From Sphingobacteriaceae bacterium (GTDB lineage Bacteria > Bacteroidota > Bacteroidia > B-17B0 > Aurantibacillaceae): DNA of 64,000 nt. Below, one piece after another: positions 22,132 through 34,449 of the stretch. Position numbers and translations under genes: made by a program. Positions within the stretch are counted from its first letter, which is position 1, and every line of letters starts with the position of its first letter. The stretch is taken from contig CANGGP010000013.1 of NCBI GenBank assembly GCA_947453445.1, positions 1-64,000 on the forward strand, in the 5' to 3' direction. The notes beneath the pieces were generated by a model that was not told where the DNA came from, ran no database searches, and saw only the letters and a list, made by a program, of their open reading frames with translations.

Positions 22132-22156
22132 CCCAAATAATTCCTAATTGTCTTTT

Positions 22157-23965
22157 ATGGAAAATCCCAAATTACACACCTTTCACATTCCTGTAATGGG
22201 ATTAGCATTTACCATCGACACGCCAGTGAAGGTGGCACGATACGGTATCAATTCGGTTATTTCAATTATTGAAGATCATTTGGTTGAAAAAATGCGCAAG
22301 GTTATCTGCAAGAATGAAAATTTGCCGTACACAGCCATTGAAGAAAATGAAACGGATGCCAGGGCAAAACGAATAACGGCCTATTTGAATTTATTAGATT
22401 CAATTATTGACCAACAAATTTCGAGAATTAAAGCCCAAAATTTTGACAGCGATCATGAAATCAATGCTTACTTCGAGATGCTGCACAATGACCATGAATT
22501 AAAACAACTTTATAAAAAATTTAAGAACTCAAAGGCTGAGGAAAAGTTAGCTTTAGAAGCTGAACTTAAATCGCATATTTTCCCCGGCACCATTGATGTA
22601 AACATTATGACGAAATTGGATAAAACCAATTACGATGAAAACAACAATGAATTACCACAGGAGTATTGCGATGCGTTGGCAGCTTTAAGAGGTTATGCCC
22701 AAAGCAAGATTAAATCATCTATTATTTTTTCAGCAGGCATGAATCCTCGCTTATTCAGCTATTGTGAACAGTTTGATGATTTTTTTCCTGATAGCACCGG
22801 CCAATTAAAAAAAGAAATCGTTTTAAAAGTGAGTGATTATCGCTCAGCATTAATTCAAGGGAAATACTTGGCGAAAAAAGGTTTATGGGTGTCTGAATTC
22901 AGAATTGAATCGGGCATTAATTGTGGTGGACATGCCTTTGTATCGAACGGAATGTTATTGGGTCCTATTTTAGAAGAATTTAAAAATAAACGTGAAGAAC
23001 TGGCACAAGAATTATACACTGAATGTTGCAATGCTTTAAAAAACAAACAAAAACTTGCATTTATTAATCGTCCTAATTTAAAAATTACAGCACAAGGCGG
23101 CATTGGTACTGCATTTGAAAATGATTTTTTACTGCATCACTATAATTTAGATGCCACCGGCTGGGGCAGTCCTTTTTTACTTGTACCTGAAGCCACTAAT
23201 GTAGATGAAGATACACTTCAGAAATTAGCACATGCCAATCAAGAAGATTATTATGTGAGTCATGCTTCACCCTTGGGCGTGCCCTTTAATAATTTTAGAA
23301 GAAGTAGCTCAGAGGATCAAAGAAAAAACAGAATTCATAAAAACAGACCCGGTAGTCCTTGCTATAAAAAATTCCTAATTTCTAATAAAGAATTTACAGA
23401 TAAGGCCATTTGTACCGCATCACGCGAATACCAACGTTTAAAAATTAAAACACTCGAAAATTCAATTAGTGATAAAGCCATTTTGCAAGCTAAAATTGCA
23501 GAGATAGAAGAAAAAGATTGTTTATGTGAAGGATTAGGTGCTGCTGCCTTATTGCTAAACAAGGCAGAATTATCGCATAAACTTAAAGCGGTAACGATTT
23601 GTCCCGGTCCCAATTTAGCTTACTTTTCGGGCACATTCTCCTTAAAACAAATGGTAGATCATATTTATGGCCGATTAAACATTTTAAACAATTTAAACAG
23701 ACCTAATCTTTTCATCAATGAACTTCAATTGTACATTGACTATTTAAAAAAAGACATTGAAAAAAATTTAACGGAACTCAACGGCAAAAAAATTGAGCAT
23801 TTTCAAAATTTCAAAAAGAACTTGAATGACGGTATTGCCTATTATGAGGAATTATTTCAAAATGTTCGTGACAATACCTTCTTAAAAAGCAACATGGCGA
23901 TTTTAGACCATTTGAAGGACAATTTAAATAGAATGCTAATTCCATTAACACCTCAAACCGTTTAA
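22157..23965 (+). CDS. Unrecognised large cytoplasmic protein, first gene of the nad-tna-nor operon
   Basis: 602 residues from ATG 22157 (a TTG at 22148 would add three). I cannot name the family with confidence. No signal peptide or membrane segment is seen. The first 200 residues are charged and helical. The middle has GINCGGHAF (near 260), ITAQGGIGTAFENDFLLHHY (near 315), and DATGWGSPFLLVPEATNVD. The C-terminal part has RPGSPCYKKFL, CTASREYQ, CLCEGLGAAALL and CPGPNLAYFSG. The GGIGTA phrase recalls the phosphate-binding loop of FMN TIM-barrel enzymes (nitronate monooxygenase type), but this is only a resemblance. Several Cys-containing motifs (NCGG, SPC, ICTAS, CLCEG, ICPGP) suggest metal, Fe-S or thiol chemistry. 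The gene is five bases before nadA. Confidence 0.7.
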   Translation: MENPKLHTFHIPVMGLAFTIDTPVKVARYGINSVISIIEDHLVEKMRKVICKNENLPYTAIEENETDARAKRITAYLNLLDSIIDQQISRIKAQNFDSDHEINAYFEMLHNDHELKQLYKKFKNSKAEEKLALEAELKSHIFPGTIDVNIMTKLDKTNYDENNNELPQEYCDALAALRGYAQSKIKSSIIFSAGMNPRLFSYCEQFDDFFPDSTGQLKKEIVLKVSDYRSALIQGKYLAKKGLWVSEFRIESGINCGGHAFVSNGMLLGPILEEFKNKREELAQELYTECCNALKNKQKLAFINRPNLKITAQGGIGTAFENDFLLHHYNLDATGWGSPFLLVPEATNVDEDTLQKLAHANQEDYYVSHASPLGVPFNNFRRSSSEDQRKNRIHKNRPGSPCYKKFLISNKEFTDKAICTASREYQRLKIKTLENSISDKAILQAKIAEIEEKDCLCEGLGAAALLLNKAELSHKLKAVTICPGPNLAYFSGTFSLKQMVDHIYGRLNILNNLNRPNLFINELQLYIDYLKKDIEKNLTELNGKKIEHFQNFKKNLNDGIAYYEELFQNVRDNTFLKSNMAILDHLKDNLNRMLIPLTPQTV

Positions 23966-23970
23966 TTGTT

Positions 23971-24921
23971 ATGCAAATTAACTCTGCGCAAAAGATTAAT
24001 TATTCGCAAAAAATAATTGAACTCAAAAAACAAAAAAATGCAGTGATTCTGGCGCATTATTATCAGCGCCCGGAAATACAAGACATTGCTGATTTTGTTG
24101 GCGACAGTTTAGCGCTTGCTAAAAACGCGGCTTCTACAACGGCTGATATCATCGTTTTTGCAGGCGTACATTTTATGGCTGAAACAGCTAAAATTTTAAA
24201 CCCCAAAAAAAAGGTTTTGGTGCCAGACATGGATGCCGGTTGTTCATTAGCGGATTCGTGCAGTGCAGAAGCATTTAAACAATTTCGCCAATTATATCCC
24301 AATCATATTGCGGTTACATACATAAATTGCAATGCAGAAGTTAAAGCACAAAGCGACATAATTTGTACTTCATCGAATGCTAAACAAATTGTTGCGTCGA
24401 TTGATAAAAATCAACCAATACTTTTTAGTCCCGATAAAAATTTAGGCAGATACCTCATGAAAGAAACCGATAGAAACATGGTGTTGTGGAATGGTGCTTG
24501 TTTGGTGCATGAAGCATTTTCGTTTCACAAAGTATTGCAGCTATGCGCAAAACATCCTGAGGCCAAAATAGTGGCACACCCTGAGTCAGACCGTCAGATA
24601 ATAGAAATAGCAGATTTTATTGGTTCTACTTCTGCTATGATAAATTTCATTCAAAAGAGTGAAGCCAAAAGTTTTATTGTAGGTACGGAAGCCGGCATTT
24701 TACATCAATTAAAAAGTGAAGCAGTCAATAAAGAAATAATACCAATGCCTGTTCAAGATGACAATGCTTGTGCTTGCAGCGAATGCGGTTATATGAAAGT
24801 AAATACCTTGGAAAAAATAGCCGCTTGCTTAAGTCAAGAGAGTCCTGAAATTATACTGCAAGAAGATTTAATTCAGAGGGCCTTGTTGCCTTTACAAAAA
24901 ATGATGTCCTTATCAAATTAA
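23971..24921 (+). CDS. nadA: Quinolinate synthase NadA
   Basis: 316 residues. An O2-sensitive [4Fe-4S] enzyme that condenses iminoaspartate with dihydroxyacetone phosphate to quinolinate, an NAD precursor. Signatures: LAHYYQRPEIQDIADFVGDS at the N-terminus, and cluster-ligand regions GCSLADSC, IICTSSN and CACSECGYMK. It is followed by nadB after three bases. The kynurenine route from tryptophan (tdo at 13606) is an O2-dependent alternative source of quinolinate in some bacteria. Confidence 0.97.
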   Translation: MQINSAQKINYSQKIIELKKQKNAVILAHYYQRPEIQDIADFVGDSLALAKNAASTTADIIVFAGVHFMAETAKILNPKKKVLVPDMDAGCSLADSCSAEAFKQFRQLYPNHIAVTYINCNAEVKAQSDIICTSSNAKQIVASIDKNQPILFSPDKNLGRYLMKETDRNMVLWNGACLVHEAFSFHKVLQLCAKHPEAKIVAHPESDRQIIEIADFIGSTSAMINFIQKSEAKSFIVGTEAGILHQLKSEAVNKEIIPMPVQDDNACACSECGYMKVNTLEKIAACLSQESPEIILQEDLIQRALLPLQKMMSLSN

Positions 24922-24924
24922 GCC

Positions 24925-26454
24925 ATGGAAACAGATGTACTCATCATAGGTTCAGGAATTGCCGGTTTATCCTTGGCAATAAAACTTAATGATGGTCATC
25001 CTGATTTGCACATTACAATCATCAGCAAATCAGAAGCCGATGATTGTAATACACGTTATGCGCAGGGTGGTGTTGCGGCAGTAACAAATTTACGCAACGA
25101 TTCATTCAACAATCACATACATGATACCTTGGCTTGCGGTAAAGGCTTGTGCAGTTCCGCCATAGTAAAAATGGTTGTTGAGCAAGCGCCTGCCCGCATT
25201 AACGACTTAGTTCAATTGGGTGTAAAATTTGATTATCAAGACAACAAACATTTTCATTTGGCATTGGAAGGTGGTCACTCACTGCCACGTGTGGTGCATC
25301 ACAAAGACAAAACTGGATTTGAAATTGAAAGTGTATTGCTAAAGCAGGTTCAAGCTAGAAGCAGGATACAGCTATTGACCAATACCACGGTGATTGATTT
25401 GTTGACGGAAAACATCAATCACAAAAAAACATGTTCCGGAATTAAAATACTTGATACAAAATCGAATCAAATCATTTCCTTTAGATCACAAGTAACAGTA
25501 TTGGCCAGTGGCGGTTGTGGGCAAGTGTATGCCAACACAACCAACCCCCGCGTGGCAAGTGGCGATGGTTATGCAATGGCCTTTAGAGCCGGTGCTGTCA
25601 TAAAAAACATGCGCTTCATGCAATTTCATCCTACATCATTGTATCAAGCCGCAAATCATCATGTTTCATTTCTCATTTCAGAAGCTTTAAGAGGTTTTGG
25701 TGCACATGTGGTTGACGGCAATGAAAAAAGATTTTTGTTCCTATATGATAATCGCGGAGAATTGGCTACAAGAGATGTGATTAGCAATGCCATTTACGAT
25801 TACATGCAAACAAAAGGGCTTTCCTTTGTTTATTTAGATTTAAGACACCTCGATATCAAATCGGCTAAAAATCATTTCCCGCAAATTTTTGCTGAATTTA
25901 AAAGAGCAAATTTAAATCCTAAATACGATTTAATTCCGATTACTCCTTCAGCCCATTACCAATGCGGTGGTGTTGCTGTTGACCAAGATGGGCTCACAAG
26001 CATTCAACAATTATATGCATTGGGTGAAGTGTCTTATACAGGCTTACACGGGGCCAACCGTTTGGCATCGAACAGTTTGTTGGAAGCATTGGTTTTTGCA
26101 CATAATGCTGCCGAAAAAATTAATTCTGAATCTTTTATAAACAAGGCATCACATCAAAAAACTGAAAGCATTGATATACAAATATTCGAGAAAAAAGGCA
26201 TCAAGGAGTTGATTTTTCAATTGAAAAAAACAATGACCAAAACTGCTTTCGAAAATGATTATGAAGAATTATTGAAGGCCCGCACACTTAGCACTGATAT
26301 CCTAACTATGATTGAGCAAGAAATTGCAAACATGAAGTTTTCACAAGAGCTTCTTTTGTTGCGCAATTTGTCGCAAACAGCCAATTTAATCCTTAATGAT
26401 AAAATAGAAAATTTTAAAACAGCAGATAAAGAAATTCAATCCATCCATTTTTAA
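24925..26454 (+). CDS. nadB: L-aspartate oxidase NadB
   Basis: 509 residues. A flavoprotein that oxidises L-aspartate to iminoaspartate for NadA; it can use fumarate as well as O2, so it works without oxygen. FAD-binding IIGSGIAGLSLAIKL at the start, RYAQGGVAAV, HHKDKTGFEIE, MQFHPTSLY, and TPSAHYQCGGVAVD with LGEVSYTGLHGANRLASNSL place it in the succinate dehydrogenase/NadB family. It sits between nadA (3-base gap) and tnaA (8-base gap). Confidence 0.96.
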   Translation: METDVLIIGSGIAGLSLAIKLNDGHPDLHITIISKSEADDCNTRYAQGGVAAVTNLRNDSFNNHIHDTLACGKGLCSSAIVKMVVEQAPARINDLVQLGVKFDYQDNKHFHLALEGGHSLPRVVHHKDKTGFEIESVLLKQVQARSRIQLLTNTTVIDLLTENINHKKTCSGIKILDTKSNQIISFRSQVTVLASGGCGQVYANTTNPRVASGDGYAMAFRAGAVIKNMRFMQFHPTSLYQAANHHVSFLISEALRGFGAHVVDGNEKRFLFLYDNRGELATRDVISNAIYDYMQTKGLSFVYLDLRHLDIKSAKNHFPQIFAEFKRANLNPKYDLIPITPSAHYQCGGVAVDQDGLTSIQQLYALGEVSYTGLHGANRLASNSLLEALVFAHNAAEKINSESFINKASHQKTESIDIQIFEKKGIKELIFQLKKTMTKTAFENDYEELLKARTLSTDILTMIEQEIANMKFSQELLLLRNLSQTANLILNDKIENFKTADKEIQSIHF

Positions 26455-26462
26455 AAACAAAT

Positions 26463-27845
26463 ATGAAAAACAAACTCCGCACATTAACCGAACCCTTTAG
26501 AATAAAAATGGTTGAACCATTAAAAATCACCACTGAAGAATTTCGTGTAAGCACATTAAAAAACGCCGGTTACAATCCTTTTTTATTACGATCGAGCGAT
26601 GTATTTATCGATTTACTAACCGACAGCGGAACAGGCGCTATGAGCGACAAACAGTGGGCCGGCATTATGATTGGTGATGAAAGTTACGCCGGTGCCAGAA
26701 GTTGGGAACACCTTGAAGCAGTTGTGAAAGAATTAACGGGCATGAAATACATTTTACCAACCCACCAAGGGCGTGCAGCAGAAAGAATTTTGTACGGAAT
26801 TTTGGGCGGTCCGGATAAAATATTTATCAGCAATACCCATTTCGATACAACGCGCGCGAATATTGAATTTACCGGTGCCACAGCCATCGACATTATATAT
26901 GATGAAGCCAAAGACCCCGAAGTAGATTTACCATTTAAAGGCAACATCGATTTGGGTAAATTAAAGTCATTGATCACCAAACATGGTAAAGAAAACATAG
27001 CAGCGGTAATCATAACGGTTACCAATAACTCGTCAGGCGGTCAACCGGTAAGCATGCAAAACGTAAAAGAACTCCGAAAAATTTGTGATGAACACCAATT
27101 ATTACTGGTAATTGATGGTTGCAGAATTGCTGAAAACGCCTACTTCATTAAACACCGTGAAGAAGCCTACAAGGATAAAAGTTACGAAGATATAGCAAAA
27201 GAAATGTTAAGGCTCGGCGACGCATTTATCATGAGCGCCAAAAAAGACGGCATGGTAAACATCGGTGGATTATTGACAATGAAAGACGAGGCCTTGTCGC
27301 TAAAATGTAAAAACCAACTCATTATTTCTGAAGGATTCACTACTTATGGTGGTTTGGCCGGGCGCGACATGGAAGCGCTTGCCATTGGTTTAACTGAAGT
27401 GTTTGATGCCGATTATTTACATTATCGTATTCGCAGCACTGCTTATCTCGGTGAAAACTTAAGAGCCAAAGGTATTCCTGTAGTATGGCCCATTGGTGGC
27501 CACGCGGTATACATTGATGCCAAAAAATTGTATAGTCATATTCCTGTGGAAGAATTTCCGGGTCAGGTGCTTGCTTGTGATTTGTATGTAAAGGGCGGCA
27601 TTCGCTGTTGCGAAGTGGGTTCGGTGATGTTTGGAAAGTATGATGAAAACAACAAACTGATTGCAGCCGAAAATGAATTGGTTCGGTTGGCTATTCCGCG
27701 ACGTGTTTATACGCAAAGCCACATTGATTATGTACTGGATGTATTCGATGATATTTTAGAACTTAAAGAACAAACCAAAGGATTCCACATTACATATGAA
27801 CCGCCATTTTTAAGACATTTTACTGCACGTTTCGAAAAAAATTAA
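26463..27845 (+). CDS. tnaA: Tryptophanase
   Basis: 460 residues. A PLP enzyme that cleaves L-tryptophan to indole, pyruvate and ammonia. Family motifs: EPFRIKMVEP, IDLLTDSGTGAMS, PTHQGRAAE, and the PLP lysine in SAKKDGMVN (Lys261). At the position where tyrosine phenol-lyases have the substrate-selecting Arg (Arg381 in Citrobacter), this protein has Val385 (CCEVGSV), like TnaA, so tryptophan is the better guess. It is eight bases after nadB and 18 before its paralogue tpl. No TnaC-like leader or Mtr/TnaB permease is present. Confidence 0.88.
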   Translation: MKNKLRTLTEPFRIKMVEPLKITTEEFRVSTLKNAGYNPFLLRSSDVFIDLLTDSGTGAMSDKQWAGIMIGDESYAGARSWEHLEAVVKELTGMKYILPTHQGRAAERILYGILGGPDKIFISNTHFDTTRANIEFTGATAIDIIYDEAKDPEVDLPFKGNIDLGKLKSLITKHGKENIAAVIITVTNNSSGGQPVSMQNVKELRKICDEHQLLLVIDGCRIAENAYFIKHREEAYKDKSYEDIAKEMLRLGDAFIMSAKKDGMVNIGGLLTMKDEALSLKCKNQLIISEGFTTYGGLAGRDMEALAIGLTEVFDADYLHYRIRSTAYLGENLRAKGIPVVWPIGGHAVYIDAKKLYSHIPVEEFPGQVLACDLYVKGGIRCCEVGSVMFGKYDENNKLIAAENELVRLAIPRRVYTQSHIDYVLDVFDDILELKEQTKGFHITYEPPFLRHFTARFEKN

Positions 27846-27863
27846 ACAAATAAAAAAATAAAG

Positions 27864-29249
27864 ATGAAAAAATCAGATATAAAACATTCTTGGGCTGAGC
27901 CTTACAAGATTAAGATGGTAGAGTTATTAAAAATGACCACCAAACAACAACGCATTAAAGCCATTAAAGAAGCAGGGTATAATACTTTTCTTTTAAAATC
28001 GGAAGATGTTTACATCGACTTACTCACCGATAGTGGAACAAATGCCATGAGCGATATTCAATGGGCGGCATTGATGCTTGGCGATGAAGCATACGCAGGC
28101 AGCAAGAGTTATTACAAACTTGAAGCAGCCATTCAAAAATATTATGGTTACAAATACATAGTTCCCACACACCAAGGTCGTGCTGCGGAAAATATTTTAT
28201 CTAAAATTTTAATTAAAAAAGGGGATGTGATTCCCGGCAATATGTATTTCACCACCACCCGCTTACATCAGGAACTAGCAGGTGGTACTTTTACCGATAT
28301 CATTATTGACGAAGCACACGATCCTTACAGCGACCATCCATTTAAAGGTAATGTTGACATGGCTAAATTGGAAAAAGTAGTGAAGAAGTACGGCGCAAAA
28401 AAAATTCCGTACATCAGTATTGCAACCAATGTGAACATGGCAGGCGGACAACCTGTGAGCATGGCCAATTTAAAAGAACTACGCGCTTATACCAAAAAGC
28501 TTGGTATCCGCATTATTCACGATATGACCAGGGTTGCAGAAAATGCCTATTTTATTCAACAACGTGAAAAAGGATACGCCAAAAAAAGCATCAAAGACAT
28601 TGTGAAAGAAATTTGTTCTTTAACCGATGGTGCCACCATGAGTGCTAAAAAAGACGCCTTGGTAAACATTGGCGGGTTTATGGCCACCAATGAATGGGAT
28701 GTGTTTGAAGAAGCACGCAATATGGTGGTAGTTTATGAAGGATTACACACCTATGGCGGTTTAGCCGGCAGAGACATGGAAGCCATTGCCGTTGGGATTG
28801 CGGAAAGTTTGGACGACAACCATCAACGTGCCAGAATTGGTCAGGTTGAATACTTGGGACATAAAATGATGGAATACAATGTGCCAATTGTTCAACCCAT
28901 TGGTGGTCATGGTATTTTTGTGGATGCTAAAAAATTCTTACCGCATTTAACGCAAGATCAATTTCCTGCACAAACATTGGCAGCAGAAGTATACATCGAT
29001 TCAGGCGTAAGAACAATGGAGCGCGGTATTGTTTCGGCGGGTCGCAAAGCCAACGGTGAAAATTATTATCCGAAATTAGAGTTGGTGCGATTTACCATGC
29101 CACGCAGGGTTTATACACAAGCCCACATGGATGTAATTGCCGAGTCGGTAGCATCTGTATATGAAAGACGCAATTCAATAAAAGGATTAAAAATGGTTTA
29201 CGAACCAAAATACTTAAGATTCTTTCAAGCCAAATTTGAAAAATTATAA
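27864..29249 (+). CDS. tpl: Tyrosine phenol-lyase
   Basis: 461 residues. A PLP enzyme that cleaves L-tyrosine to phenol, pyruvate and ammonia. The region TMERGIVSAGR carries Arg387 at the place of Arg381, which discriminates tyrosine phenol-lyase from tryptophanase. AGYNTFLL, IDLLTDSGTNAMSD, GNMYFTTTR, LTQDQFPAQTLAA and PLP Lys263 (SAKKDALVN) also match that enzyme closely. It is a tandem paralogue of tnaA and lies five bases before norC, so it is co-transcribed with both. Specificity is predicted from residues, not shown. Confidence 0.88.
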   Translation: MKKSDIKHSWAEPYKIKMVELLKMTTKQQRIKAIKEAGYNTFLLKSEDVYIDLLTDSGTNAMSDIQWAALMLGDEAYAGSKSYYKLEAAIQKYYGYKYIVPTHQGRAAENILSKILIKKGDVIPGNMYFTTTRLHQELAGGTFTDIIIDEAHDPYSDHPFKGNVDMAKLEKVVKKYGAKKIPYISIATNVNMAGGQPVSMANLKELRAYTKKLGIRIIHDMTRVAENAYFIQQREKGYAKKSIKDIVKEICSLTDGATMSAKKDALVNIGGFMATNEWDVFEEARNMVVVYEGLHTYGGLAGRDMEAIAVGIAESLDDNHQRARIGQVEYLGHKMMEYNVPIVQPIGGHGIFVDAKKFLPHLTQDQFPAQTLAAEVYIDSGVRTMERGIVSAGRKANGENYYPKLELVRFTMPRRVYTQAHMDVIAESVASVYERRNSIKGLKMVYEPKYLRFFQAKFEKL

Positions 29250-29254
29250 AGGTT

Positions 29255-29668
29255 ATGAAAATAGGCATCACATCTGTATTTATTTTTTTAAGTGCATTGT
29301 TTCTTGCCTATTCCTTTAGTATTTATTTACAACCACTTTCAGAAAAAAAAGTGCTTGGTTTCAATCAACAAAAAGCTGCTGATGGTAGACTTATCTGGCA
29401 AAAATACAATTGCCAAAGTTGCCATCAGCTTTTTGGCTTAGGCGGTTATTTAGGGCCCGACCTTACAAACACGATTTCAAATCCCAACAAGGGCGAAAAC
29501 TTCATGCGCGCCATGATACAATCCGGTATTAAACAAATGCCGGCCTTTCACATTCCCGAAAACGAATTAACAGATTTATTTGAATTTTTAAAATCAACGA
29601 ACGCCAGTGGTGTTGCTGACCCTAGAAAATTTAACACCAATGCTTTTGGCATGATTCATCACCAATGA
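29255..29668 (+). CDS. norC: NorC-like membrane-anchored cytochrome c
   Basis: 137 residues. One N-terminal membrane anchor (about residues 5-25), then a periplasmic cytochrome c domain with a CQSCH haem site (C53, C56, H57) and a likely Met95 ligand (KQMPAF). HQLFGLGGYLGPDLTN after the haem site is the NorC signature region. It would pass electrons to NorB. It overlaps norB by four bases and follows tpl by five. Confidence 0.88.
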   Translation: MKIGITSVFIFLSALFLAYSFSIYLQPLSEKKVLGFNQQKAADGRLIWQKYNCQSCHQLFGLGGYLGPDLTNTISNPNKGENFMRAMIQSGIKQMPAFHIPENELTDLFEFLKSTNASGVADPRKFNTNAFGMIHHQ

Positions 29669-30987
29669 ACAAATTAAAAAACAATAGCGGTCAACAATTT
29701 TTATTTTTAGCACTGTGTATTTTATTTGTCGCGTTGCTTTTTGGTGTATTTACTGCTGTTGTGTATTTAATACCCGATTTTTTAAAAGAGAGTTTTGGTT
29801 TTGCAGCACTCAGACCCTTACACGTAAGCTCGGCATTATTTTGGATCATACTTGGTGCCAGCGGATGTGTTTATAGTGCCTTGCAAGCAATAACTGGCAA
29901 ACTTATTTTTAACATTAAAAGCAAAGCACAAATCGCTTTTTGGTTATTTGCATTACTGAGCATTTATTATTCTTATTTCACAAAACAATTCGGCGGCCGC
30001 GAATATTGGGAGTTTAATCCTATTTGGTCATTGCCCATTGTGATTGCTTGGGTATTATTTCTTATTAATTTTATTAGCATTGTCAGAAAAATAAAAAACT
30101 GGCCCGTTTACATGTGGATGTGGCTCACAGGTATTGTTTTTTTTCTGTTTATATTCCTCGAAAATTATTTGTGGGTGTTTCCTTATTTCAGAAGTCATTT
30201 TATCACCGATATGACAATTCAATGGAAGGCTAACGGTTCTTTGGTTGGTGCATGGAATCAAATTTTATATGGAACAGCTTTTTATTTAATGGATAAGATT
30301 GAGAACAAACAAGACGTTGGCAAAAGTAAATTAGCATTTGCTACCTTCTTTCTTGGTCTTGTTAACCTAATGTTTAATTGGGGGCATCATGTATATACCC
30401 TTCCAACAGTAAACTATGTGCGGTATGTGGGTTATGCGGTAAGTATGACTGAATGGATTTTCTTTCTAAAAATATTTTACAATTGGAAAAAAAGTGTAAG
30501 CGCTGTGCAAAAAAATTATCATCATTTTCCTTATCGCTTTTTAATGATGGCTGATGTATGGGTGCTAATCAATCTAAGCCAAGCCTTGCTCATGTCGATT
30601 CCCGCCATCAATATCTATACACATGGCACACACATTACAGTAGCGCATGCCATGGGAACAACAATTGGCATAAACAGCATGATCATCTTGGCCTGCTGTT
30701 TTGAATTTATGGCTCCAAAAAACATATCCTTGTTTAGTGCAAAGTTTTTAAACCTACAATTTTGGGTATTACAAATTGGCATTTTTATTTTATGGGCTTC
30801 CTTAAATTTGGCTGGCATAAAAAAAGGAATTTGGCAGATGAGCAATCCGCAGAGTACATATGCTGAGATGATGGCAAGTTTAAAGCCTTATTTTATTGCC
30901 TTCGGATTGGGAGGAACAATTATCACAATAGCACTATTTGGCATCGCATTTAAATTAATTCAATGGACTTTAAAAAATAATACTTAG
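29665..30987 (+). CDS. NorB-like haem-copper oxidase family protein (divergent nitric oxide reductase)
   Basis: 440 residues, about 12 membrane helices, close to NorB length. Conserved: His53 (haem b), GGREYWEFNP, NWGHH with His241/His242 (two FeB ligands), Glu263, YTHGT and His328 (haem b3). Aligned by eye to Pseudomonas NorB, the third FeB His (207) falls on Asn190, the FeB Glu (211) on Val194, and the second haem b His (349) on Met330. Pairing with norC makes NO reduction the first guess, but the catalytic site is atypical. Divergent NOR families with altered sites are known; I cannot place it in one. Confidence 0.8.
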   Translation: MNKLKNNSGQQFLFLALCILFVALLFGVFTAVVYLIPDFLKESFGFAALRPLHVSSALFWIILGASGCVYSALQAITGKLIFNIKSKAQIAFWLFALLSIYYSYFTKQFGGREYWEFNPIWSLPIVIAWVLFLINFISIVRKIKNWPVYMWMWLTGIVFFLFIFLENYLWVFPYFRSHFITDMTIQWKANGSLVGAWNQILYGTAFYLMDKIENKQDVGKSKLAFATFFLGLVNLMFNWGHHVYTLPTVNYVRYVGYAVSMTEWIFFLKIFYNWKKSVSAVQKNYHHFPYRFLMMADVWVLINLSQALLMSIPAINIYTHGTHITVAHAMGTTIGINSMIILACCFEFMAPKNISLFSAKFLNLQFWVLQIGIFILWASLNLAGIKKGIWQMSNPQSTYAEMMASLKPYFIAFGLGGTIITIALFGIAFKLIQWTLKNNT

Positions 30988-31983: not shown

Positions 31984-32421
31984 ATGATATTTAGTAAAGC
32001 TTGCGAATACGGAATAAGGGCCACCATTTATATTGCGCAACAATCACTAAATAATAAGCGTCCCAATTTAAAAGACATTTCAAAAGAAATAGATTCACCG
32101 GAAGCATTTACGGCCAAAATCTTACAACAATTAGTAAAAGGCAAGGTAATTCAATCGGTGAAAGGTGCGAATGGAGGATTTGAAATAAACAACAAAAAGA
32201 TGGGGAAGGTAAAACTGAAGGATATTGTAAAAGCCATCGACGAAGATTTTGATTACAAAATTTGTGTCCTCGGTTTAAAACTTTGTTCTGAGTTACGCCC
32301 TTGTCCTGTACACCATAAATACAAACACATCAAAGCCGAATTAAAAAACATGTTGCAAAGCACCAATTTATTGGATTTGTCGGATGGTTTAAAAGACGGC
32401 AAAACTTGCTTACGATTCTAA
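31984..32421 (+). CDS. Rrf2 family transcriptional regulator, NsrR/IscR-like
   Basis: 145 residues, normal Rrf2 length. Winged helix at the N-terminus (IFSKACEYGIRATIYIA, then KILQQLVKGKVIQSVKGANGGFEI). Three cysteines, C94, C101 and C107 (C-x6-C-x5-C), match the cluster ligands of NsrR and IscR in position and near-spacing, so an NO- or redox-sensitive Fe-S cluster is likely. It probably represses its own promoter and the orf602-nor operon through the shared palindrome. It lies 18 bases before nrdJ. Whether the signal is NO, O2 or cluster status is not decided by sequence. Confidence 0.9.
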   Translation: MIFSKACEYGIRATIYIAQQSLNNKRPNLKDISKEIDSPEAFTAKILQQLVKGKVIQSVKGANGGFEINNKKMGKVKLKDIVKAIDEDFDYKICVLGLKLCSELRPCPVHHKYKHIKAELKNMLQSTNLLDLSDGLKDGKTCLRF

Positions 32422-32439
32422 CTTCTAAAACAATACACT

Positions 32440-34449
32440 ATGTTAAATTTTAAACTCGATGAAGAATTTGTGAATTCTTACAAAGACATCAAGCCTGATT
32501 TTGGTTTTAACGGGCTCGGACAACTAACTTATTACCGTACGTATTCCCGACTGACGGAAAACGGTCATAATGAACAGTGGTACGAAACCGTGAGACGCGT
32601 AGTTGAAGGAGCCTATACTTTACAAAAAGAGCACATATTAAGTAATGAACTTGGTTGGAATAACCGCAAAGCGCAACATTCAGCCCAAGAAATGTACGAC
32701 CGTATTTTTAAAATGAAATTTTTACCGCCCGGCAGAATGCTGTGGGCTTTAGGCACACCCATTATTCATCAAAAAAGAGTTGGCCAAGCTTTATTTAATT
32801 GCGCTTTTGTTTCGACTGAAAATATTGGCAAAACCTTAGAGGAAGCCTTAAAACCATTCACGTTTATGATGGACATGAGCATGGTGGGTGTTGGTGTTGG
32901 GTTTGATGTTGAAGGTGCCAAAAAAATCGAAATCAACGCTCCAACAAGTAAACACGAAGAAATTTTTGTGATTCCCGATTCTCGCGAAGGCTGGGTAATG
33001 AGCTTAGAAAAATTATTATTCACTTATTTTTCAAAACATTTTGGCTTTAACAATGCCTCGGTTGTAAAATTTAATTATGAAGAAATTCGTCCCGCAGGCA
33101 TTCCCATTGCAGGATTTGGCGGCATTTCATCGGGCCCTGCCCCACTCGAAAAATTACACAACCAATTAAGGGATGTGCTACATAGATTAGACGGCAAGAA
33201 GATAACCGTTACCGCCATTACGGATATCATGAACATGATTGGTCAATGTGTGGTTGCTGGCAACGTAAGAAGAACGGCTCAAATTGCTTTGGGTGAAGTG
33301 AAAGACAAAGAATACCGCAGTTTAAAAGATTACAGATGGAATTCAGAATCACAAAAATACGAAGGCAGCATGGCCCACCGAGCCCAATGGGGCTGGGCTT
33401 CAAACAACAGCGTGAATGTAGATGAAAGCACCGACTTTGAAGAAGTGGCCAAACAAACAGCCATTAATGGCGAACCGGGTTTTGTGTTTATGAATAATAT
33501 TCGCGCCTTTTCTCGTATGTGTGATCCGGCCGATAACAAAGATATCAAAGCAAAAGGTACCAATCCATGCGGCGAACAAACTTTAGAATCTTACGAATTG
33601 TGCTGCCTTGTTGAAACCTTTCCTTCAAGAGCAGAATCTAAAGAAGATTATTTAAGAACCTTAAAATTTGCCTATTTATTGGGTAAAACGGCCACCTTGG
33701 TGAATACCACTTGGCCTGAAACAAACCGTGTTCAAAAACGCAATCGCCGCATTGGCACTTCGGTATCAGGCATTACAAATTTCATTGGCGAACATTCATT
33801 GGATGTTTTAAAACAATGGCTCGATGAAGGTTACCATGAAATTCAAAAATGGGACGATATTTACTCTTCTTGGTTATGTGTTCCAAAAAGCATCAAAACC
33901 ACCAGTGTAAAACCAAGTGGCACCGTAAGTTTATTGGCTGGTGTTAACCCCGGCTGTCACTTCCCGGAATTTAATTATTACATCCGAAGGATGCGTTTAT
34001 CAAAAAACTCGAGTTTGTTGCCTGCCATTTTAAATTCAGGATTGCACATTGAAGACGATGTGGTAGACGCAAGTTCGGTGGTGGTAGAATTTCCAATCCA
34101 CAACCAAGGAAAGTCGCTGAATACTGTAAGCATATGGGAACAGGTTTCGCTGGCTGTTTTTTTACAAAAATACTGGTCCGACAATCAAGTTTCTTGCACT
34201 GTAACAGTGAAACCCAACGAAAGCCATGAAATTAAAACTGTGTTAGATTATTTCAAATACGATTTAAAATCGATTAGTTTTTTACCAAAACTCGAATTCG
34301 GCGCATATGCTCAAATGCCTTATGAAGCCATTTCTAAAGAGCGTTATGAGGAAATGTCGGCAAAAATTACTTCGGTAGATTTTAAACAGGTTTCTGAAGA
34401 TTCTATCGGCGAAAAGTTTTGTAACAACGACGTGTGCATGGTGGTATAA
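32440..34449 (+). CDS. nrdJ: Class II (adenosylcobalamin-dependent) ribonucleotide reductase
   Basis: 669 residues, the monomeric Lactobacillus-RTPR type. It makes deoxyribonucleotides with a B12 radical and needs no O2. C121 (FNCAFVS), the thiyl-radical site C377 in NPCGE and the partner C388 eleven residues later match RTPR Cys119, Cys408 and Cys419; the C-terminal relay pair is CNNDVC. It is somewhat shorter than the roughly 740-residue prototype. It is co-transcribed with the Rrf2 regulator and followed by a strong terminator. Cobalamin genes are not in the window. Confidence 0.92.
   Translation: MLNFKLDEEFVNSYKDIKPDFGFNGLGQLTYYRTYSRLTENGHNEQWYETVRRVVEGAYTLQKEHILSNELGWNNRKAQHSAQEMYDRIFKMKFLPPGRMLWALGTPIIHQKRVGQALFNCAFVSTENIGKTLEEALKPFTFMMDMSMVGVGVGFDVEGAKKIEINAPTSKHEEIFVIPDSREGWVMSLEKLLFTYFSKHFGFNNASVVKFNYEEIRPAGIPIAGFGGISSGPAPLEKLHNQLRDVLHRLDGKKITVTAITDIMNMIGQCVVAGNVRRTAQIALGEVKDKEYRSLKDYRWNSESQKYEGSMAHRAQWGWASNNSVNVDESTDFEEVAKQTAINGEPGFVFMNNIRAFSRMCDPADNKDIKAKGTNPCGEQTLESYELCCLVETFPSRAESKEDYLRTLKFAYLLGKTATLVNTTWPETNRVQKRNRRIGTSVSGITNFIGEHSLDVLKQWLDEGYHEIQKWDDIYSSWLCVPKSIKTTSVKPSGTVSLLAGVNPGCHFPEFNYYIRRMRLSKNSSLLPAILNSGLHIEDDVVDASSVVVEFPIHNQGKSLNTVSIWEQVSLAVFLQKYWSDNQVSCTVTVKPNESHEIKTVLDYFKYDLKSISFLPKLEFGAYAQMPYEAISKERYEEMSAKITSVDFKQVSEDSIGEKFCNNDVCMVV

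Follow-up and report, generated by a model that had tools for sequence, protein, structure and literature searches.

A conserved NorB-like family of Bacteroidota without the helix VI ligands of FeB

The locus described here raises the question of whether a NorB-like protein missing metal ligands formerly regarded as indispensable is a decaying gene, an artefact of alignment or a member of a functional family and, in the last case, what such a protein might do. The two genes concerned, which we call norCx and norBx, overlap by 4 bases in the window (the whole stretch of DNA that was analysed, 64,000 nucleotides); they are listed together with their neighbours and the residues discussed below in Table 1.

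Table 1. Features of the norCx-norBx locus in the window (Pa, Pseudomonas aeruginosa cNOR)
Feature	Positions	Strand	Remarks
605-aa protein	22148..23962	+	first gene of a tightly packed run ending in norCx-norBx
nadA-nadB (quinolinate synthase, L-aspartate oxidase)	23971..26454	+	same run; names from inspection of the sequence, not from a family search
tryptophanase-family gene (26463-27845) and tyrosine phenol-lyase (27864-29249)	26463..29249	+	same run
norCx, NorC-like subunit (NorCx)	29255..29668	+	137 aa, one N-terminal TM, one haem c (CxxCH)
haem c motif CQSCH of NorCx, residues 53-57	29411..29425	+	family alignment
norBx, NorB-like catalytic subunit (NorBx)	29665..30987	+	440 aa, ATG start, HCO fold; PF00115 111 bits
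His53	29821..29823	+	Pa His60, low-spin haem b ligand, kept; alignments
Lys188	30226..30228	+	family-invariant, start of helix VI, Pa W204 or V205; alignments
Asn190-Gly191	30232..30237	+	expected place of helix VI FeB His207, lost; alignments
Val194	30244..30246	+	FeB Glu211, lost; alignments
Asn198	30256..30258	+	Glu215; Asn invariant in NorBx family; alignments
His241-His242	30385..30390	+	FeB His258/His259, kept; alignments
Glu263	30451..30453	+	Glu280 near FeB, kept; alignments
His328	30646..30648	+	His347, high-spin haem b3 proximal ligand, kept; alignments
Met330	30652..30654	+	replaces His349, second low-spin haem b ligand; invariant Met; alignments
Rrf2-family regulator	31984..32421	+	downstream of norBx

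A residue set conserved across a family

Residues were paired with those of the solved P. aeruginosa cNOR (3o0r), with which NorBx aligns in phmmer at E 1.8e-8. This alignment bears out the preliminary description of a NorB-like protein that has neither the FeB histidine of helix VI nor the glutamate that binds FeB, and no second histidine ligand for haem b, and it reproduces exactly the pairings proposed there (N190/H207, V194/E211, N198/E215, H241-H242/H258-H259, H328/H347 and M330/H349). The residues that had been listed as kept, His53, His241/His242, Glu263 and His328, are likewise confirmed and are all invariant in the family. The register of helix VI is uncertain by one residue: an anchor at the end of the helix, K211-I212, gives N190 = H207 in agreement with phmmer (K-I or K-V lies 21 residues on from this position in cNOR, cbb3 and NorBx alike), and a MAFFT alignment of 49 sequences gives G191 = H207 and G195 = E211. 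Either register leaves the site with no His and no acidic ligand, and the helix is without any conserved His in NorBx. Helix X reads HAM where cNOR has HGH. Set beside the conserved histidine sextet by which the heme-copper oxidase (HCO) superfamily is recognised (PMC3413370), NorBx keeps four of six; the helix VI His and the second haem b His are gone in 23 of the 23 family rows tabulated, whereas the same comparison finds all six in cNOR, qNOR and cbb3 sequences and five in the single NO-dismutase-like row. Only the equivalents of His258 and His259 survive from the FeB ligand set of cNOR (His207, His258, His259 and Glu211), and the bis-histidine low-spin haem b of cNOR is not found either.

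Other residues might be thought to stand in for the lost ligands. Asn190 is an unlikely substitute because distant members have Ser, Tyr or Ala at this position. An arrangement that the preliminary description had considered, with His178 or His320/His323 at the FeB site, is rejected by the alignment: His178 is not conserved, and His320/His323 correspond to Pa H339/Q342 on helix X, shortly ahead of the haem b3 ligand and away from FeB.

A search of a genome collection with one query sequence, by which distant phyla could be missed, returned 34 norBx loci at 49-65% identity, all from Bacteroidota where named (one is titled only 'bacterium'). Further members from whole genomes bring the family to about 43 across Bacteroidota, with relatives 40-66% identical. 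Across 43 aligned members, R50, H53, K188, N198, H241, H242, E263, H320, H323, H328 and M330 are conserved in every covering row, while N190 and V194 are each found in 41; no member has His at either helix VI register, and Asn predominates at position 190. In a 25-row set reaching down to 40% identity the same ligands do not vary either. Values of dN/dS between near relatives are 0.03-0.19, and norCx adjoins norBx at every locus where the contig reaches; in the alignment of its own family, C53, C56, H57 and M95 of NorCx are invariant. The altered residue set is a trait of a functional family, and decay, which had been disfavoured on account of the intact NorC partner, or a frameshift of norBx is ruled out by the dN/dS values and the family conservation. 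The two missing signature histidines might still suggest that a copy of NorB is decaying or that the alignment misleads, but the chance of either is very slight given that about 43 relatives share the residue set, that selection is purifying, that NorC pairing is maintained and that the ligand loss holds in both registers of helix VI.

Place among the NO reductases and oxidases

In an IQ-TREE phylogeny NorBx forms a monophyletic clade (100/99) outside the cNOR clade, sister to cNOR plus qNOR (92/88) and apart from cbb3; this would make it a third lineage alongside cNOR and qNOR, with the caveat that the sister branch is long and drew a program warning about possibly false joins of this kind. 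An AlphaFold2 model (pLDDT 83, weakest at 185-187) has the 12-helix HCO fold and scores Z 39.8 to cbb3 and Z 39.1 and 37.9 to cNOR in a comparison with the PDB; the model is haem-free, and ligand placement was judged by alignment, not by distances. A plasmid search gave only distant cbb3/NOR matches at about 24% identity. The earlier suggestion of a divergent NOR family with a different metal site thus stands in its first half, for a separate conserved clade under purifying selection with NorC adjacent; a different metal site may go with it.

Like cNOR, NorBx and NorCx are two subunits of which the haem c protein is encoded beside norB, and NorBx shares with cNOR the HCO fold, the equivalents of His60, His258, His259, Glu280 and His347, the Arg-Glu of the GRE motif and an equivalent of Glu138. 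It differs, at about 20% identity, in lacking helix VI His207 and Glu211, in having Asn for Glu215 and Met for His349, in the absence of the carboxylates on which NorD docks and in the absence of NorD itself from most carriers. Whereas qNOR is a single fused chain with an N-terminal cytochrome c-like domain, NorBx is a protein of 440 aa with a separate NorC. The CcoN subunit of cbb3 oxidases gives similar fold and sequence scores, but it has all six histidines and other partner subunits, and the tree splits it from NorBx. The His-to-Asn change had also raised the suspicion of a substitution like that of the putative NO dismutase (NOD), another NOR relative with a substituted FeB histidine; a nod-like gene adjoins one copy of norBx. 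In NOD, however, HH has become HN and Glu280 has become Gln while the helix VI His and Glu are kept (PMC3413370, PMC10286720); NorBx is the mirror image, and a NOD-like substitution is rejected since NOD changes the HH pair and not helix VI (PMC10286720). Putative NOD genes with HH to HN and Glu to Gln lie in two Bacteroidota genomes (L127:9375-11681 in G469 and L128:2823-5201 in G254:C27), one directly adjoining norCx-norBx; in the two proteins SHN takes the place of HH and the Glu280 motif reads STLQ, with helix VI His and Glu kept.

The families eNOR, sNOR, gNOR and nNOR were reportedly defined in a paper by Murali et al. Together with CuANOR, the first three are HCO relatives that carry a changed residue in the active site and whose reduction of NO has been proposed or demonstrated. 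This residue is listed as Gln, Asn or Asp, and eNOR, sNOR and gNOR have a cupredoxin subunit II (PMC8756737). If the residue is taken as the Glu211 position, and by description only, NorBx differs from all of them in having Val or Gly there, a haem c subunit and no helix VI His. A search of the open-access literature found no earlier description of the NorBx residue set; a prior mention may exist elsewhere, for example in Murali et al.

Gene neighbourhood and co-occurrence with nosZ

In the window, norCx and norBx close a run that begins with the 605-aa gene and continues through nadA, nadB, the tryptophanase-family gene and tyrosine phenol-lyase. The 605-aa protein had no family match (window copy against PHROGs and the PDB, a relative against Pfam and NCBIfam), and its model (pLDDT 65) gave no confident PDB fold match; its family is present at 14 of the 34 norBx loci (e.g. 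L014:2289-4097, L015:3659-5467), at 49-65% identity and with many invariant residues. The pairing of adjacent beta-eliminating lyases recurs in relatives. About 14 of 34 relatives have Rrf2 genes close to norCx-norBx. A B12-dependent ribonucleotide reductase (window 32440-34449) adjoins the Rrf2 regulator; Flavobacterium relatives have, in place of this reductase, an anaerobic NrdD upstream. The start of a gene for a cbb3 oxidase lies 4 kb downstream of norBx. Promoter and terminator scans of the norCx-norBx operon found nothing above chance, and candidate FNR-like boxes were listed for it, unweighted.

The source genome carries clade II nosZ on another contig; apart from NorBx, PF00115 matches in it only one enzyme of the aa3 type and one of the cbb3 type, and a search of it gave no nirK match, no canonical NorB and no NorD. 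Among 87 genomes of the order, 18 carry NorBx and 20 have a clade II nosZ that exceeds the cut-off, with nosZ in 17 of the 18 carriers vs 3 of the 69 non-carriers (Fisher p 4e-14); phylum-wide, among 395 genomes, nosZ is present in 8/8 carriers vs 127/395 overall (p 3e-4 excluding the source genome). These counts are not phylogenetically independent, and the linkage is partly shared synteny. In nine genomes norCx-norBx lies 7-16 kb from nosZ, and in several a DUF2249/ScdA-N/hemerythrin protein, a fasciclin protein and a thioredoxin are encoded between them. The association is not obligatory in either direction: one genome (G052) has norBx with no nosZ detected, and 119 of the 127 sampled nosZ-bearing Bacteroidota genomes are without NorBx, so that NorBx is not needed for N2O reduction and a strict dependence of NosZ on it is rejected.

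Links to NO-metabolising genes are also seen. The order norC-norB-ric-norQ-norD-norCx-norBx is found at two loci (L010 and L012), and norQ-norD lies upstream of norCx-norBx at a third (L014), norQ and norD being assigned by their sequence and their place in the gene order; in G469 norCx-norBx diverges from a 768-aa nod-like gene, with about 70 bp between. Six genomes of the order have nirK (in two pieces in one of them); NorBx is present in every one of the six, and four of the six have canonical cNOR. The remaining two, G019 and G063, combine nirK and nosZ with no clear cNOR or qNOR among their PF00115 matches, and NorBx is therefore the sole visible candidate for the NO-reducing slot there; G063 has one more divergent HCO of 731 aa, outside the classification. 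Because six NorBx carriers also have cNOR, NorBx is not simply its replacement. In one of these the cNOR norB looks interrupted, with stops in its first part (G278:C3:6683-7902), NorD being intact and NorBx present. Taken as a whole, the genomic surroundings make a part in NO/N2O metabolism more likely than action on an unrelated substrate.

Two sets of membrane proteins, of 410-434 aa, were seen in the same surroundings. Those of the first (L117:1900-3129, L029:4351-5583) carry an HAHSHFAFAGW motif, lie near Crp/Fnr regulators and nosZ or norBx, and have no Pfam match; those of the second (L111:10085-11386, L116:7685-8977) lie between nosZ and norBx and give weak PF00115 matches of about 36-41 bits. 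Both are possibly further far-diverged HCO relatives. Separately, a COX1 match at G072:C549:9968-11638 contains TGA codons in frame, six of them in one piece and one in another, which suggests that mitochondrial-type DNA contaminates that assembly.

NorQ and NorD are essential for FeB insertion into cNOR, which without them is haemylated, FeB-free and inactive, and NorD docks on surface carboxylates of NorB (D220/E222 in P. denitrificans) (PMC9976466). NorD is present in 6/6 NorBx carriers with cNOR and in 0/19 without it, the source genome among the latter. The docking carboxylates, which we take to be D233/E235 in P. aeruginosa because the FeB ligands are offset by 13 residues, are retained by 7/7 cNOR sequences of the alignment and, as a pair, by no NorBx. 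With both NorD and its docking residues absent, NorBx in most carriers has therefore no access to the known factor for loading FeB. This pattern fits, but does not prove, a changed or empty B site; the absence of NorD alone proves little because qNOR requires neither NorQ nor NorD (PMC9976466).

What NorCBx might do

We favour, at a probability of about one half, the reading that NorCBx is a conserved NO-reactive variant of the cNOR type whose FeB site is altered or empty and which serves Bacteroidota that reduce N2O. Electrons from a c-type donor would enter at the haem c of NorCx and pass to a low-spin haem b whose ligands would be His53 and Met330 (a His/Met pair in place of His/His), and from there to a high-spin haem b3 on His328. 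The canonical FeB site above haem b3 would be dismantled, with only His241, His242 and the nearby Glu263 left, and the B site might hold a metal on the two histidines (plus Glu) or none. NO would be bound and reduced, or otherwise consumed, at haem b3 at low oxygen, in cells with N2O reductase. Consumption or binding of NO is the most economical function because of the company of nosZ, nor, nod and RIC, and the invariance of His241, His242 and Glu263 argues for a retained metal or catalytic role.

The main rival explanation, which we consider unlikely but to be taken seriously, is that NorCBx is non-catalytic, a haem electron relay or NO/O2 sensor-buffer derived from NOR whose vacant B site would be filled by Lys188 or other polar residues. 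Since FeB-free cNOR is fully haemylated but inactive (PMC9976466), NorBx, two of whose FeB ligands are missing (the helix VI His and a Glu), may not reduce NO at all; the lack of NorD in carriers without cNOR and the coexistence with a full cNOR in some genomes are also consistent with this explanation, and a His/Met haem would probably suit a relay. A pure relay, however, would have no need of invariant His241, His242 and Glu263, nor of the haem b3 ligand His328. It is rather improbable that NorCBx instead gives electrons to, or otherwise helps, the clade II N2O reductase without acting on NO: the very strong co-occurrence and linkage with nosZ would be explained, but not the great majority of sampled nosZ-bearing Bacteroidota that do without NorBx, nor the carrier with no nosZ detected, nor the presence of norCx-norBx in canonical nor operons and beside a nod-like gene. 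Less probable again is the reduction or oxidation of another small molecule, such as O2 at very low level or NO to nitrite. Here the cbb3 oxidases are among the closest profile scores and the window copy has a cbb3 gene nearby, yet NorBx is without the CuB histidine set and the tree groups it with cNOR and qNOR, not with cbb3.

NorBx is almost confined to bacteria that break down N2O, a greenhouse gas, and may be an unrecognised NO-handling step there. Genes for nor have been found in only 17% of nosZ-only Bacteroidetes, and a third of Bacteroidetes with nirK and nosZ are without norB (PMC4250227); a recent survey, in which the majority of nosZ 'terminators' came from Bacteroidota, removed sequences without conserved ligand-binding positions (PMC12569097). 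We would suggest, tentatively, that the family may consume NO without a canonical FeB and with a His/Met low-spin haem, and that some 'nor-less' nosZ bacteria may process NO after all. If NorCBx does not consume NO, it would be a rare natural HCO complex that is without B-site ligands and under strong selection, and would be useful for testing the role of FeB. If it does, the NO-to-N2 capacity of nosZ-bearing Bacteroidota would have been undercounted.
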